This document shows positions 8,405 through 29,675 of a stretch of DNA of 39,710 bases, piece after piece; the first letter of the stretch is position 1, and the number at the start of each line of letters is the position of its first letter. A program made the translations under genes and the position numbers. The DNA comes from a virus: IMG/VR virus record IMGVR_UViG_3300001798_000012, positions 1 through 39,710 of that record. The stretch is one strand, 5' to 3'. The notes under the pieces are model-generated. The model saw only the letters and a list, made by a program, of their open reading frames with translations, ran no database searches and was not told the origin of the DNA.

Positions 8405-9652
8405 TTAAACCGCCGTAGCTTGTTGTCCTGAGATAGATGCGGAGATCACACCGCTTGTGCTAATCAATGCATAGTAATCAGCTGGTAAATAGACAGTAAC
8501 CGGAATGACATTAAGAGCCGCTAAAGTGATGCTATTGACAATCGTTTGCTGTGTAGGTGTACTTGTCGATCCTACCCCACATAGGATGCTTGCCGCTGTC
8601 GCTGAAGCTACAGCTATATATACCGTTAGAATGACATCATACCCTAAGGAGTTTTGATACGCTGATCCTAAAGAAAGAGTAGATGTGGATGAAGCCGATG
8701 GAGAGGTAGATATAGAGTTAGCAGTTACATCTCCAAGCAATAGAGAATTGTAATCTAAAACAGAGGTGCCAAATGTAATAGCATTAGCGCCTAGTTGATA
8801 TAGAGAGTTATAACTGACAGTTCCAGAGCCGGAAAACGTAGGAGTAAAATTAAATACAGAGGTAACGCCGGTATTTATAAAGCTATAAGTACATCCAGCT
8901 GTTGCGGTAAACACCGACTGCACTGAGGAATTTGTATTCCCATATACTTGAGAATTGATGAAGGATGCGGATGAAGCCGTACCCAAAGATATAGCAGTGG
9001 ATAAAGCAGAAAGAGAAGAGTCTATAAACGTTAAACTACCAGAGGAAGAAACTCCAAACCCTTGAGCTATGGAAGAATTTTTAATTACTATCTGTGTTGA
9101 CTCTATCGTTAGCGTGTTGTAGTTGAACGAGTTATTAGTCGTTACACAGTTAACAAAATAAACATACCCAGGAGCACCGCTTGTGACTAGTAAAGCACTT
9201 GCATTACTAACTAAAATTAATGAACAAGAATCCAGATATACAGAGGCGCTAGAAGAAGTATTTAAGAAGTATATGGAAATGTTATTCGTGCAATTGAACT
9301 TACAATTTAAGAAGTTGATAGATCCCGCCGAACTGCCAGTATAGGATAGACTATATGTTGTATCAGACTGAAGAGTGATATTGCTTATAGAAATATTGCC
9401 AGATCCCGAGAATGTAAATCCCCCCGTGATCGTGACATTTGAAGAAGTACTATTGCCGCTCCAAGAGGTTAAATTAATGCCAGCTTTGAGTGCGACCACT
9501 TCGCTGTACGTGCCCTCTCCAATGTAGATAGTATCTCCGCTGGAAGCTGCATTGACCGCAGCCTGTATAGTCGTGTAGTTTCCCGTGCCAACCACAGGGG
9601 AGACTACAAAATCAGAAAATCCATAGGTGTTTGCTGGTGTAATTAGCGTCAT
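8405..9652 (-). CDS. Pectin-lyase-fold tail spike (415 aa)
   Basis: Start taken at ATG 9652 (MTLITPANTYGF), 7 nt after GGAG; a longer frame exists but overlaps the upstream gene. GNYTTIQAAVNAASSGDTIYIGEGTYSE (residues ~25-52) is the classical opening of pectin-lyase-like beta-helices, followed by many Ser/Asn-rich rungs. It shares the VVSP ... GNYTTIQ opening with the protein at 9649-11079, so the two are paralogs. Possible polysaccharide binding or depolymerase role; no catalytic acids can be assigned by eye. Confidence 0.7.
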   Translation of the reverse strand: MTLITPANTYGFSDFVVSPVVGTGNYTTIQAAVNAASSGDTIYIGEGTYSEVVALKAGINLTSWSGNSTSSNVTITGGFTFSGSGNISISNITLQSDTTYSLSYTGSSAGSINFLNCKFNCTNNISIYFLNTSSSASVYLDSCSLILVSNASALLVTSGAPGYVYFVNCVTTNNSFNYNTLTIESTQIVIKNSSIAQGFGVSSSGSLTFIDSSLSALSTAISLGTASSASFINSQVYGNTNSSVQSVFTATAGCTYSFINTGVTSVFNFTPTFSGSGTVSYNSLYQLGANAITFGTSVLDYNSLLLGDVTANSISTSPSASSTSTLSLGSAYQNSLGYDVILTVYIAVASATAASILCGVGSTSTPTQQTIVNSITLAALNVIPVTVYLPADYYALISTSGVISASISGQQATAV

Positions 9653-25128: not shown

Positions 25129-26247
25129 TTAACTATTGGCAAAATCCGGAATCCAAGCTTCCCAAAATATCGTATTTCCGTTTGCACCAACGAGTACAGA
25201 AGAGGTGAATGAAACACCTGCCCCTGCTCCGATGATCAAACCTTGACGTGTATTATTGGCAAACGCTCCACTAATTCCAGGACCGCCTACGATGGAAACT
25301 CCACCGGAGGAAGTTGGGAACTGAGGAGATGGATACAGGACACTGCCGCTATACGCTGGACCACCGCTATTGATATCGCCCACAGCCACAACTTGAGGGA
25401 AATTCAGGCCAGGAACACTTGCAACCGTCTGGTTGCTGTTAAAGGCTGTATATCCTGTCGAGTTAATGCTGCATACGAATATCGTGTTGCTAGTCACAGA
25501 AGTTACATATCCATAGATCGGAGATCCAGGGATCGTTGTGTTAGGAAGCGAATTCAATTGGGTTGTACCCCAAAGAGACGGAATCCTAAATGCAATTTCT
25601 TGACCAACTACGTAGTTGTGGTTAGCTGTTGTTGTAACAGTAGTTGTCGTACCTGTTGTAATAGCGCTGATGTAATTCACACCAGGCTCGTACAGATCAG
25701 GATACAACACCTTTTTCACGTAAGCACCAGATGGAGATGCACTCAAAGCAGTATAATTGCTTTGGTTGGTATTCCAAATGATCGTGAATGTGGTAGCGCC
25801 TGTCACAGTAATCACAAAAGGAATTGTACAAATCTGAGGCATACCAGTTGTTGAAGACTGATATAGCCCTTGGAAAATGACAGTATCCCCTGTGGAATAG
25901 CCGTGATTAGACGCTGTTGTGACAACAGCCGGACTTGCTTTTGTAATCCCAGATATCTGAATTTGCGCACCATACTGCAAGGCAAGCCCTGCACTAAATG
26001 TGCTAAATCCAGCTGAGGTCACTATATCCGTAGACAAGACAGGAGTTGCATTGAACACTTGTTGCACTGCATATCCTTGCCCCATCGAGACATCCCAATA
26101 AGCAAAAGGCACACCATTCTGCGCAGGAGTGCCAGCGGCTGTATAGTTTGTCAATCTAGCGTTTGTAGGCTGGAATGGCAAATACAGCGACTTAGCAGCG
26201 CCTGTTGAAGTAAAACTTCCCTTAGCAAATCTTGAATACTCAGCCAT
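25129..26247 (-). CDS. Virion protein downstream of capsid (372 aa)
   Basis: Ser/Thr/Gly-rich beta protein with two similar domains: ASNHGYSTGDTVIFQGLYQ ... TFTIIWNTNQSNYTAL and ANHNYVVGQEIAFRIPSLWG ... FVCSINSTGYTAF. The NHGY/NHNY-x-GD/GQ motif marks each. The C-terminus is GGPGISGAFANNTRQGLIIGAGAGVSF. The position immediately after the major capsid gene and the strong expression context suggest a head decoration or fibre protein. Its ATG overlaps the capsid stop by 1 nt. Confidence 0.6.
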   Translation of the reverse strand: MAEYSRFAKGSFTSTGAAKSLYLPFQPTNARLTNYTAAGTPAQNGVPFAYWDVSMGQGYAVQQVFNATPVLSTDIVTSAGFSTFSAGLALQYGAQIQISGITKASPAVVTTASNHGYSTGDTVIFQGLYQSSTTGMPQICTIPFVITVTGATTFTIIWNTNQSNYTALSASPSGAYVKKVLYPDLYEPGVNYISAITTGTTTTVTTTANHNYVVGQEIAFRIPSLWGTTQLNSLPNTTIPGSPIYGYVTSVTSNTIFVCSINSTGYTAFNSNQTVASVPGLNFPQVVAVGDINSGGPAYSGSVLYPSPQFPTSSGGVSIVGGPGISGAFANNTRQGLIIGAGAGVSFTSSVLVGANGNTIFWEAWIPDFANS

Positions 26248-28168
26248 TATACACCTCCATTATTACCAGCTCTTGTGCAGAGCAGGTTTCGGATAGCTGT
26301 ATCTTGAGTAATCAATTGGCTCTGGGGGAACCGTACCGCAAGCGTAGCATTTTGCATCAGCATGCCTGAATACTCAGGGCCTCTATACAGAAGCTGCATA
26401 GAATCCCCATCTTGACTGATATGCGTTACAGCCTGTTTACCGCAAACAGTGTTGTAATACACATCTCGGCTAGCTGCTGATGCACTTCTAGCCACTGGCG
26501 CTTCAGAGCTTGTCAAGATACGTGTGTTAAACACATTTCCGTACTCAGAATATAGAGCACTAATAGTGCTACTATAATTCATGACTGACAAGAATCCTGC
26601 GCCTGTTAGTCCATCAAAATCAGGCTGTAGCTCTGTAGAGCTAAGCATGAAATAGGATGGGCGTATTGGGCCTGTACCGAACTTCAACGAGCCTTCTTCA
26701 CCTGCGATAAATTTCATCGCATTATTAGTGTCAAGGGTCGATGCCACCAACGAGAAGTCAGAGACTCCTAGGTTGCTTGGATTGTCGCCATTGTTCCCAC
26801 CGCCTGCATAGATATCCGAACTAGCGGATACTACGTAGTCGCGGAGGATAAGCATTCTGTTACCCCACCTTTCGGCGTGGATAGGTCATTTCTGCCTACC
26901 TCTCGGATTTCATCTATAGTCCGAGTTCAGAGCACCGCATCTCCTTTTACAGAGTCCAACCGCTTGCTGCGTTCAGGCTGCACACTTTCGCTGCTTGCCC
27001 CTTGTTGCCCCATCGGGTTTCCAAGTTAAAAATTAAATACGCCCATGACTATAATAATTGTCTTCAATTTTATACATCATAGAACTGCACATATATGGCT
27101 TCACAAGATAAATGAAGTTTTTTTTAGATTCTTTTTTACTTATGCAAACAGTAGGTCCCTTTCTATCATATATTCTAGCTTCTACACCATAAACCAAAAG
27201 CTTTTCTAATAACAAAGAAAGACTTTCTTTGTCAAAGTCATTGGTAGAGATACAAAATTGATGAATATACGGATGTACTTCATAATAGATAATACCTGAT
27301 TTAAGCTTCATTTTGTCTTTTTTTATAACGGCTTTATGACCGTCATCTTGAAACAAAAATGCAATGGTTCTTTCATCAAATAATTCTATTAATTCTGGGC
27401 AAAGTGTTTTTTTTCCATTTTTATAAAGCACTTCTCTTACTCTTTTTATTTCTGAGCTTCTTCCTGTCATTGCATAACAAACATGAAATCCCTTATCTAT
27501 CCTTTCCCTAAAAATACATTCAATTCCATTTTCCCTTAAGTAATTCATCTTAAAATGAACATACTCTTTTTGTTTTATAGAATGATGCATTCTTAATAAA
27601 CAATTTGCATTCTCGGTTTTTGGTTTTGATATATACCCGTCACCCAAACTTAAATCTAGGATAGCTTTATTTAACATTCATATATCTTACCTTATATGGG
27701 CTTTTAATTCCATCAGGTTAGATTTATCGAGGACATTATCTCTATCCTCGGCTTGGCGCATCGACATGGCAAGTCTTTCACTCACCCATGCTAACACCAT
27801 TTGCGCCAAACTAAGAGGGCGTGTTATGCTGATATTTTTGACGTAAGTCCTTTACCCTCTTGATCTTGTAAAAGTACCTGCCAGTTAATTATACATCCTG
27901 TACCAAACCAAGCCATTTCAGCGTCAAGTATATCACGCTGAGGAACTTGCGCCGGAGGATCTATGCCACTGTTACCTAATTGCACAGTCGGGGGCTGCAA
28001 CGCTCTTGGACGCATAAAGCGACAAGTCGTACCACCACCCACTGGCATATTTACCGTATCAGCAATGAGGCGATAATTCATCGTTGGTGTCGGCGTATAT
28101 AGATACGCAGGCGCCAGCGATTGTAGAATCATCGGTCCTAGATTGCTTGTTGTTGTAATGCCTGACAT
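26247..28168 (-). CDS. Major capsid protein, N4-gp56 family, three exons (324 aa)
   Basis: Exon 1a 28168-27854 (105 codons, MSGITTTSNLGPM ... NWQVLLQDQEG), exon 1b 27797-27744 (18 codons, VLAWVSERLAMSMRQAED), exon 2 26852-26250 (201 codons, LILRDYVVSASSDIYAGGG ... RNLLCTRAGNNGGV) with stop to 26247. Joined they give one in-frame HK97-fold capsid protein of the N4-gp56 family: TPTPTMNYRLIADT, GNSGIDPPAQ, the QDQxxVLA ... MR-x-x-ED-x-x-LRD block, NNGDNPSN, GTGPIRPSYF, EYGNVF, and CGKQAVTHISQDG all fit. Unspliced RNA would give only a 114-residue fragment ending at TAA inside the first insertion. The scaffold gene precedes it. Confidence 0.9.
26853..27743 (-). ncRNA. Group I intron in the capsid gene (intron B)
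   Basis: The 5' splice site follows U in CGAGGAU (exon, 27750-27744); the internal guide GUCCUCG (27734-27728) pairs with it over 7 bp ending in the required U.G wobble. The adjacent GAUAA (27740-27736) pairs with UUAUC of exon 2 (P10). The intron ends ...AACAGAAUG with a terminal G, as group I introns do. GCCCAU and AUGGGC flank the endonuclease gene and can pair, placing it in a peripheral loop. The region 26853-27032 is GC-rich and structured, but I did not resolve P3-P8. Excision makes the frame continuous. Confidence 0.85.
27033..27677 (-). CDS. LAGLIDADG homing endonuclease in intron B (214 aa)
   Basis: Two LAGLIDADG-type motifs: ILDLSLGDGYI (residues 6-16, D13) and TIAFLFQDDGHKA (104-116, D111/D112), giving a monomeric two-motif enzyme of the LAGLIDADG DNA endonuclease family. 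Basic, Lys-rich and more AT-rich than neighbouring late genes, as expected for a free-moving intron gene. Wholly inside the capsid-gene intron; it has its own ATG. It would cut intronless capsid alleles at the exon 1b/exon 2 junction and spread the intron. It could also act as a maturase. Confidence 0.9.
   Translation of the reverse strand: MLNKAILDLSLGDGYISKPKTENANCLLRMHHSIKQKEYVHFKMNYLRENGIECIFRERIDKGFHVCYAMTGRSSEIKRVREVLYKNGKKTLCPELIELFDERTIAFLFQDDGHKAVIKKDKMKLKSGIIYYEVHPYIHQFCISTNDFDKESLSLLLEKLLVYGVEARIYDRKGPTVCISKKESKKNFIYLVKPYMCSSMMYKIEDNYYSHGRI
27798..27853 (-). other. 56-nt core-less group I-like insertion (intron A)
   Basis: Splits the capsid frame between QDQEG and VLAW and brings an in-frame stop. 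Its ends obey group I rules: exon ends in U, insertion ends in G (CAAAUG, compare CAGAAUG of intron B). GCCCUCUU (27820-27813) pairs with exon AAGAGGGU over 8 bp ending in U.G (P1). UAACAC (27826-27821), directly 5' of it, pairs perfectly with GUGUUA, the first six bases of exon 1b (P10). Only 15 nt follow the guide, so no catalytic core is present. It is probably an intron remnant; a core would have to act in trans. Confidence 0.75.
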
Positions 28169-28170
28169 GA

Positions 28171-28245
28171 TTAACCTGTGTTAACCATTAATCCCTTGAA
28201 TCTAGAGTCTGCCGTAACGCCGGCTGCGATAGACACCAAACTCAA
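28171..28245 (-). CDS. Possible small leader peptide before the capsid gene (24 aa)
   Basis: TTG 28245 preceded by GAGGG, reading SLVSIAAGVTADSRFKGLMV and ending TAA three nt before the capsid ATG. The same frame is open further back (RIRPFAEGRTY) to a TGA, without a standard start. The sequence looks protein-like and its stop abuts the capsid start, so it may be a leader whose translation feeds the capsid gene, which otherwise has a poor ribosome binding site. Confidence 0.35.
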   Translation of the reverse strand: MSLVSIAAGVTADSRFKGLMVNTG

Positions 28246-28255
28246 GTATGTTCTA

Positions 28256-28345
28256 CCCTCTGCGAAAGGGCGAATACGTCAGTAGTGACGAGCTACAATA
28301 CGTCATGGCTTGACGAGAGCCGATACGTCAGTCCTTAACGTGGAC
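28256..28345 (-). repeat. Four-hairpin array upstream of the capsid gene
   Basis: In mRNA sense: GUCC-ACGUUAA-GGAC (28345-28331), GGCU-CUCGUCA-AGCC (28321-28307), GUAG-CUCGUCA-CUAC (28296-28282), CCCU-UUCGCAG-AGGG (28270-28256). Each is a 4-bp stem with a 7-nt loop; starts are 24, 25 and 26 nt apart. UGACGUAU follows each of the first three. The stems differ while pairing is kept, and two loops are identical, so structure rather than sequence seems conserved. Loop CGUCA is complementary to linker UGACG. Located between the scaffold stop and capsid start. Confidence 0.75.
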
Positions 28346-28359
28346 AATCCGCTAGATCT

Positions 28360-29025
28360 TTACGTTCTTCTACCTTTTATCAAAGACTGCATCTTTTCCC
28401 AAGCAGCTTTTTGCCCAGCTGGAGAGAAGTCCCCTTTTTGTCCTTGATAAGCCGGAGTGCTAAAGGAGGAAGGCTGAAAAGGAGTTTGTCTATTTCTATC
28501 GATCGTCTCTTGGATGGATGAGCCTTTAGGTTCTTCTTTCCTGCCTATACCCATCTCTTTCATTGTTTGATATAGGAGCTTTTGACGACCGAATCCCTCA
28601 GGTACGTTTTCCAAAATGTTTTCCGCGATGCCAGGATATTTCTCAGCGAATTTTTGGATGTTTTCTGCCGACATGACATTGTTAAAATCGGAATTGGACT
28701 TGAAGAAAGTGCTCTGTCTCTCTTGTTCTATCATAGCACGGGCACGAGCTTCCGCTTTCTGATCGATCTTCTTTTCTAGATTCGCCTCGAATTTAGATAG
28801 AGTCTTAGAGAGCACTCTTTTATCAATGTATGACTGATCATCGTCGTCCTCTTCTTCCTCGGGAGCTTTGGACTTCTCATAGGCAGCAGCTCTTTGTTCA
28901 GCTTGCAATCTCGCATTTCTCTCAGCTTCCAAGTCGCGTTCGTATTTTGCTTGCATAGCTCTGAAGTTAAGCTCTTTTTCGCTGATTTGTGGTTGATTTT
29001 CTGCATTTTGAGCTGGTACTGTCAT
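28360..29025 (-). CDS. Scaffold protein (221 aa)
   Basis: Start at ATG 29025 (MTVPAQNAENQPQ) after GGGAT; the longer frame would have no ribosome binding site. Typical scaffold composition: Glu/Gln/Ala-rich coiled coil (RDLEAERNARLQAEQRAAAYEK), an acidic run EEEEDDDD near residues 55-63, a second coiled coil, then a Gly/Pro/Gln-rich, basic C-terminus (KAAWEKMQSLIKGRR) that would bind the coat. Directly upstream of the capsid gene, as in P22- and N4-like phages. No protease motif. Confidence 0.8.
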   Translation of the reverse strand: MTVPAQNAENQPQISEKELNFRAMQAKYERDLEAERNARLQAEQRAAAYEKSKAPEEEEDDDDQSYIDKRVLSKTLSKFEANLEKKIDQKAEARARAMIEQERQSTFFKSNSDFNNVMSAENIQKFAEKYPGIAENILENVPEGFGRQKLLYQTMKEMGIGRKEEPKGSSIQETIDRNRQTPFQPSSFSTPAYQGQKGDFSPAGQKAAWEKMQSLIKGRRT

Positions 29026-29081
29026 GAGATCCCTGGGGTTGAAAACTATATTTAAACTAAATAATTTAATAACGGTCAAGC

Positions 29082-29675
29082 ATGAAAGATATAAAAGGCA
29101 TAGCCTTAAAAAAACTCAACAAACTAGAAACTCACGATCGCAAGATATGCTTCCAGAAACACCAAACTGATGTTGGAGCATTTCTACAAGATATCATAGA
29201 TAACAAACCTTTCGGAAATAGACCCTGCTATTTACATATCATACACAAAAGATCAGTGGGAGAAGATGAGAGGGTTGCTTTAGTACGCCAGGGAGAATAC
29301 GACAATATAGAGGATACCCCTGTAGCTTGTATGTGGATGCAAGCACGACTCTCTAAACCAGAAGCTACTCCCAATACCACGTTGATTAAAATCACCCCTG
29401 GAGCCGAAGAGGTGAGAATCATCTGGTCGTTGCCCGAAGAACATCTCTGGAATCTGTTTCAAACCAGCATGTTTAGAGACGATCTCACCAGCAGAAGCAT
29501 CAACATGTACAAAATGAACAAAAGAGGGTTAGAAGCTCTGGAAGAAGATGACCCCAAGACTAAAGATGAGTTCACCGGATTGATGAATCAATTTGCCAAG
29601 ACGCCAGCACAACGAAAAAAACTAGTGAGGCGCATACCTATCTATGCACCTCGTGAGACTGCTATTCCGGACTAA
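29082..29675 (+). CDS. Plus-strand gene inside the late operon (197 aa)
   Basis: Runs opposite to all neighbouring structural genes; divergent from scaffold across a ~55-bp AT-rich gap and overlapping the convergent 74-residue gene by 4 nt. The core ARLSKPEATPNTTLIKITPGAEEVRIIWSLPEEHLWNLFQ resembles an uncharacterised phage family in which such a protein also lies near the capsid genes, as I recall. The C-terminus is charged (KTKDEFTGLMNQF ... RKKLVRRIPIY). The ribosome binding site is weak. A regulatory or early function is suggested by orientation only. Confidence 0.6.
   Translation: MKDIKGIALKKLNKLETHDRKICFQKHQTDVGAFLQDIIDNKPFGNRPCYLHIIHKRSVGEDERVALVRQGEYDNIEDTPVACMWMQARLSKPEATPNTTLIKITPGAEEVRIIWSLPEEHLWNLFQTSMFRDDLTSRSINMYKMNKRGLEALEEDDPKTKDEFTGLMNQFAKTPAQRKKLVRRIPIYAPRETAIPD

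Follow-up and report, generated by a model that had tools for sequence, protein, structure and literature searches.

A modular structured leader predicted before the major capsid gene of uncultured tailed phages

Introduction

Why would the major capsid gene of a phage be preceded by a row of near-identical hairpins, and do these act as RNA or as DNA? The question is raised by a 39,710-nt stretch of viral DNA (IMG/VR record IMGVR_UViG_3300001798_000012, positions 1 to 39,710; hereafter the window), a contig of a tailed phage that has been assigned to a genome bin of 1.95 Mb. Its minus strand holds the genes for terminase and a P22-like portal, a scaffold-like ORF and the major capsid gene, and a first-pass annotation, made from the letters alone, had singled out four small hairpins before the capsid start. 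Here we follow this array through two clades of relatives and weigh what it may do.

Results

The capsid locus

In the sense direction of the capsid gene, that is, on the minus strand, the array occupies the gap between the scaffold-like ORF (28360–29079, minus) and the first capsid exon (27824–28168, minus), in the leader of the intron-containing gene to which it had been assigned. Its 3′ edge (28256) is directly upstream of the capsid ATG (28168). The first-exon ORF is 79–85% identical to the capsids of relatives, and the second exon (26247–26855, minus) belongs to the N4-gp56/phrog_1357 head protein type. Between them an intron-like insertion, which contains an ORF for a LAGLIDADG endonuclease, interrupts the gene (26247–28168, minus), and none of the Rfam intron models matched the window; in the phage group such insertions occur at many different sites of the capsid gene (L013, L014, L018, L022, L028, L033, L035 and L044).

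The scaffold-like ORF fills the portal–capsid interval and has homologues in the same place in relatives; domain and family searches found neither a family match nor an RNA-binding domain for it. A plus-strand ORF (29082–29675) between portal and scaffold is opposed to the morphogenesis genes and has homologues in nearly all relatives, with no family match. A DNA-similarity search of annotated phages returned no match to the window.

The phage and its relatives may be tailed phages of environmental chlamydiae; misbinning is possible, as the bins that hold other relatives carry the labels of very different phyla. Chlam_OMP, a chlamydial outer-membrane protein family, scores over the cut-off in the window's own bin (G000) and is missing from 14 control genomes. 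A capsid gene with this array is also found in L638, a bin of the same order, and L170 belongs with these two.

Anatomy of the array

Read from 28345 to 28256 on the minus strand, the array runs GUCC-ACGUUAA-GGAC, UGACGUAU, C-GGCU-CUCGUCA-AGCC, A-UGACGUAU-U, GUAG-CUCGUCA-CUAC, UGACGUAU-UCG, CCCU-UUCGCAG-AGGG. The four hairpins that had been described are thus confirmed on this strand, with 4-bp stems (GUCC/GGAC, GGCU/AGCC, GUAG/CUAC and CCCU/AGGG), 7-nt loops (ACGUUAA, CUCGUCA, CUCGUCA and UUCGCAG) and starts at 28345, 28321, 28296 and 28270, spaced by 24, 25 and 26 nt. The linker UGACGUAU occurs three times in the array and once more elsewhere in the window, and its UGACG is, as had been noticed, perfectly complementary to the CGUCA that both identical loops contain. 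Each linker is able to pair with the next hairpin's loop, and every repeat can therefore form a small H-type pseudoknot. The first-pass annotation had considered a translational switch in which loops and linkers kiss; a conserved structured leader with loop–linker pairing stands, but the partner of the linker is the following hairpin's own loop, making the predicted interaction a local H-type pseudoknot and not distant kissing.

The order of strands in units 2 (28307–28330) and 3 (28282–28305) is that of an H-type pseudoknot: A5′ (UGACG), UAUC or UAUU, B5′ (GGCU or GUAG), CU, A3′ (CGUCA) and B3′ (AGCC or CUAC). The gap from A3′ to B3′ is 0–1 nt in the window; A3′ touches B3′, and therefore not all A pairs can form together with B in standard geometry. 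Either the A stem is shortened to 3–4 pairs in these units, or the A and B hairpins alternate. Unit 3 has a compensated counterpart in L137, GGCGUAA-GUAG-CU-CGCC-A-CUAC.

The flanking units are weaker. In unit 1 (28331–28352) a possible pseudoknot stem joins GCG (28352–28350) to CGU in the loop of GUCC-ACGUUAA-GGAC with one G-U pair; its counterpart in relatives is CGC-n-GUCC-U-GCGUUAU-GGAC, with covarying CGC/GCG. Unit 4 (28256–28281), UGACGUAUUCG-CCCU-UUCGCAG-AGGG, has a reduced pseudoknot stem with an A × C mismatch (ACG × CGC) and resembles ACGUAUUUGUCCUUUCGUAGAGGUCAAAAC of L099, in which the ACG/CGU pairing is intact.

Two downstream elements had been absent from the first-pass annotation. 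A 3′ domain (28195–28246, minus) consists of a helix, CUUGA/UCAAG plus GUCU/AGAC, around a further unit, CGC-A-GCC-G-GCG-UUAC-GGC (28228–28211), and corresponds in position to the P1 and pseudoknot domain of clade-1 relatives (alignment A1). A predicted hairpin at the start codon (28167–28188, minus), AUGGUUAAC-ACAG-GUUAAUCAU, joins 28188–28180 to 28175–28167 in both the minimum-free-energy (MFE) and the centroid fold; it pairs the AU of the capsid start codon, and the Shine-Dalgarno AGG lies at 28177–28175.

The arrangement is far from random, as had been supposed: dinucleotide-shuffled versions of the leader contained a chain of at least four such hairpins in 2 of 20,000 cases and an 8-mer in three copies in 0.02%. 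Under nested folding the whole leader is unusually stable (z −2.90; 0 of 200 shuffles as good). The array alone is not (z −0.81), because nested folding can neither form nor score pseudoknots. The MFE structure mixes A-type with B-type hairpins.

Conservation in the window's own clade

The clade-1 sample comprised eighty contigs with 56–65% identical portals and eighty with 79–85% identical first capsid exons; the nearest relatives of the window are L186 (portal 64%) and L099. By pattern, a conserved element is present in 93 of the 102 distinct clade-1 capsid leaders. It consists of the units CGC-n-GUCC-U-GCGUUAU-GGAC and GCGUAA-GGG-n-UCGCA-CCC, followed by the domain GAUAUGAUCGAGAAC-GACGUAA-n-GG-CUCGUC-UA-CC-GAUCAUCAUAUC. 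Across 77 aligned domains the outer helix P1 is 98% paired and has double changes in all six of its pairs, and the pseudoknot stem has them in four of five. Covariation reaches 0.247 against 0.137 in shuffled alignments, and none of 500 shuffles attains any of the measures. Non-Watson-Crick cells on the capsid-sense strand are G-U in 37 cases and A-C in 9, an excess that points to RNA of that strand. A permutation test with a greedy hairpin finder confuses A and B hairpins in this clade, where A stems are 3 bp.

R1, a 109-position covariance model of the canonical clade-1 form, matches capsid leaders once per phage, with no other match below E 0.02 in 1.04 Mb. It has no match in the window, that is, the canonical P1 domain is not recognized there; the window is a divergent member with a divergent 3′ domain.

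A more distant clade recognizes the window

Clade-2 capsids are about 43% identical to that of the window. The 74 distinct leaders sampled hold 2.47 modules each on average, against 0.67 in shuffles, and at least 4 bp of linker–loop complementarity is found in 45% of their hairpins, compared with 17% after permutation of the loops (0 of 300 permutations). The A stems take the forms GACG/CGUC, AGCG/CGCU, GGCG/CGCC, AACG/CGUU, GGUG/CACC and GACC/GGUC. In a two-unit alignment, chosen regardless of complementarity at that site, the variable A pair 2–20 is GC in 10 cases, AU in 8 and mismatched in none. A module of about 24 nt emerges: A5′, a short U/A-rich linker, B5′, about 2 nt, A3′ pairing with A5′, 0–2 nt, and B3′ pairing with B5′.

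R2, a covariance model of 18 clade-2 arrays from which the window was left out, has a single match in the window, 28329–28280 (minus), at 32.5 bits and E 6.5e-7. This match spans at least two tandem modules, takes in units 2 and 3 and is the only one in the whole 1.95-Mb bin. In a control of 0.64 Mb of other phages the best score was 16.8 bits (E 0.1). On clade-2 loci mostly outside the training set R2 gives repeated matches, for the most part no more than about 130 nt from the capsid start; matches in two other genomes (L639 and L641) lie inside coding regions and are put down to chance. We define the tandem-pseudoknot capsid leader family here by R2/A4.

Searches blind to the capsid gene

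IMG/VR was scanned, blind to capsid genes, with the window's unit TGACGTAT-N4-8-CTCGTCA, a compensated form (TGGCGTAT/CTCGCCA) and a mismatched form (TGACGTAT/CTCGCCA). Among the distinct matches listed, a complementary B hairpin accompanied 7 of 92 with the window's own form, 6 of 102 with the compensated form and 0 of 84 with the mismatched form; displaced controls gave 1, 0 and 1, and the two forms with complementary A strands differed from the mismatched form (Fisher p 0.008). Of the 13 B-hairpin matches listed, nine are tandem arrays with two to four units each, every one of them immediately ahead of an N4-gp56-type major capsid gene; the array of L210 ends just inside that gene. The other four are not arrays: the matches in L329 and L344 fall within genes and are attributed to chance, and L309 and L327 hold single units directly before a scaffold gene next to the capsid gene (L309:11609; L327, minus strand, about 1267–1286). 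A scan with the scaffold as query found one locus only, L311, in another gene context, and a generic two-module scan was dropped as a census because GC-rich phages yielded too many false positives.

The search for the same pattern before the capsid genes of relatives, which the first-pass annotation had proposed, thus found it in both clades and in the capsid-blind arrays. That annotation had also named relatives lacking covariation or the array as evidence against it; in the uncultured clades the outcome went in its favour. The capsid-leader array is shared across a large group of uncultured bacterial viruses. In cultured phages whose N4-gp56 capsids are distant, the space between the upstream gene and the capsid gene is 11–90 nt or holds a homing endonuclease gene, and there appears to be no room for the element.

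No Rfam 15 family reaches its gathering score over the array, with only chance matches in the window, and the arrays of 13 relatives are likewise unmatched apart from an unrelated DUF3800-VIII insertion in L160. This RNA (RF03075; L160:2326–2390, plus; 43 bits, above the gathering score) is inserted between two capsid-leader units. A different tandem repeat, CGTAAATATTGCAAAATGTTACGATTTGA, with module-like hairpins, occurs away from the capsid gene at 9394–9450 of the reverse complement of L006, and also in L007. Judged by sequence, the small repeated folds that would open the capsid message seem to form an undescribed family, which may have been listed before, unnamed, among candidate RNAs.

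Promoter and ribosome-binding site

In many clade-1 relatives a TTGACA-n17-TATAAT-like promoter stands just upstream of the array, and in clade 2 the first unit usually begins 5–10 nt past a TATACT-like −10 box. Clear −10 boxes precede the array in many relatives; the window has only a weak match, TAAAGA (28362–28357), in a putative σ70-like promoter (28356–28384, minus) read by analogy with them, with TTTGAT (28384–28379) 16 nt upstream. Because the array follows directly on these boxes in relatives, it is predicted to form the 5′ end of the capsid transcript. In relatives it begins at the predicted transcription start or shortly past it, and it stops some tens of nucleotides short of the capsid start codon.

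In clade 2, B3′ of the last unit and the letters that follow can pair with the Shine-Dalgarno region, as CUUGAAGU can with ACUUCAAG in L562; the mean run of this helix is 4.75, against 4.00 with permuted partners (0 of 1000). Since that B3′ is also part of the helix, formation of the last unit would compete with it. In clade 1, which includes the window, covariation of an anti-Shine-Dalgarno or Shine-Dalgarno hairpin is not significant, and conservation of the start-codon hairpin is unsupported.

Discussion

The array is probably a modular cis-acting structured leader that controls translation and/or stability of the capsid mRNA. The modules, their conservation, their placement before the capsid gene, the covariation of both A and B stems and the sense strand are established as features of sequence. 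We posit that each module forms a small pseudoknot or switches between its A and B hairpins, and that this folding would determine how well the capsid message is translated and/or how long it lasts; with 0–1 nt separating A3′ from B3′, a standard H-type pseudoknot may be unable to accommodate both stems at full length. In one clade, in which B3′ of the last module takes part in a helix over the Shine-Dalgarno site, module formation would uncover the ribosome site. The array would most naturally be acted on by one of the phage's structural proteins, as part of an autoregulatory loop.

Several known RNAs share parts of this design. Mu-gpT-DE RNA (RF03012) is a candidate structured RNA reported to lie upstream of a phage major head gene, but no Rfam model matches the window's array or, apart from the insertion in L160, those of the 13 relatives. 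Tobamovirus RNAs carry a tandem pseudoknot domain, small H-type pseudoknots stacked in a row, upstream of their tRNA-like 3′ end; the consecutive pseudoknots predicted here resemble it but would occupy a 5′ leader in bacteria rather than the 3′ end of plant RNA virus genomes, and no homology is claimed. By analogy, the nearest known mechanism is that of the T4 gene 32 leader. In T4, T2 and RB69 the translational operator bound by gp32 is an H-type pseudoknot that covers about 28 nt ahead of the start codon (PMC535899, PMC3014915); a 2010 review considered it to be possibly still the only viral example of a pseudoknot in autoregulation of translation (PMC3014915). Here, too, a predicted H-type pseudoknot would precede the start codon within the 5′ leader of a phage mRNA; both stems covary in relatives and may form either together or in turn. 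Gene 32 of T4-like phages has one pseudoknot and encodes an ssDNA-binding protein, whereas two to four tandem modules precede the capsid gene of phages with N4-gp56 capsids. The predicted fold type and the position are shared but gene, repeat number and known ligand are not, and therefore we claim no membership in the gene 32 group.

How such a leader would act can be read in several ways. The array could be an autoregulatory operator at which capsid, scaffold or another phage RNA-binding protein binds single modules and represses or activates capsid translation, with module copy number setting sensitivity. T4 gene 32 provides the precedent (PMC535899, PMC3014915), the modules, among the matches listed, are confined to capsid-gene leaders and, twice, to the scaffold gene just before, and repeated modules keep the unpaired letters CGUA or CGUUA beyond the needs of pairing; the scaffold-like ORF, however, has no detected RNA-binding domain, and we hold this reading only tentatively, as rather unlikely in itself. 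A little more doubtful is a switch in which A and B stems are mutually exclusive: each linker can also pair with the preceding loop (CGUCA-nnnn-UGACG), so that the array would flip as a chain, for example with temperature or ribosome load. The abutting A3′ and B3′ strands in the window, the mixture of hairpin types in the MFE structure and the overlap of the last B3′ with the anti-Shine-Dalgarno in clade 2 are consistent with it, but type I units of relatives have 4-nt loops, which fit a true pseudoknot, and relatives mostly do not preserve pairing between a loop and its following linker.

Alternatively, a structured 5′ terminus could block 5′-end-dependent decay and keep the message of the capsid, the product required in largest amount, long-lived. 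The first module lies 5–10 nt past predicted −10 boxes, and 5′-terminal pairing is known to stabilize bacterial mRNA, with the stem-loops of ompA and papA as examples (PMC3997798). Those, too, sit at the extreme 5′ end of an abundant mRNA (here a predicted end) but are simple hairpins, neither modular nor covarying pseudoknots; a single stem-loop would be enough, two to four modules with conserved unpaired letters would not be needed, and the anti-Shine-Dalgarno covariation of clade 2 is left unexplained, all of which makes stabilization an unlikely account of the array. A DNA-level operator, which the first-pass annotation had also entertained, would have a repressor or activator of the capsid promoter bind the repeats. 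Direct repeats with an ACGT core at 24–26 bp adjoining a promoter invite this view, but both stems carry compensated changes, even from GACG/CGUC to GACC/GGUC, G-U pairs are tolerated on one strand only (the capsid-sense strand), and the repeats lie downstream of the predicted start with a spacing that varies freely in relatives; we regard it as highly improbable.

Returning to the structured RNA leader, we can imagine an elaboration, speculative and unlikely, in which capsid or scaffold protein binds module by module in an array of variable copy number and access to the ribosome site depends on the last module, which opens or closes it. If this were true, the phage would meter capsid synthesis against assembly, and a modular RNA feedback device would be common to a wide group of tailed phages. 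What precedes the gene of the most needed virion protein is, by its sequence pattern, a widespread modular RNA that stayed conserved even as capsid identity fell to about 43%. With natural compensatory variants to hand, control of capsid dosage at the RNA level is now directly testable.
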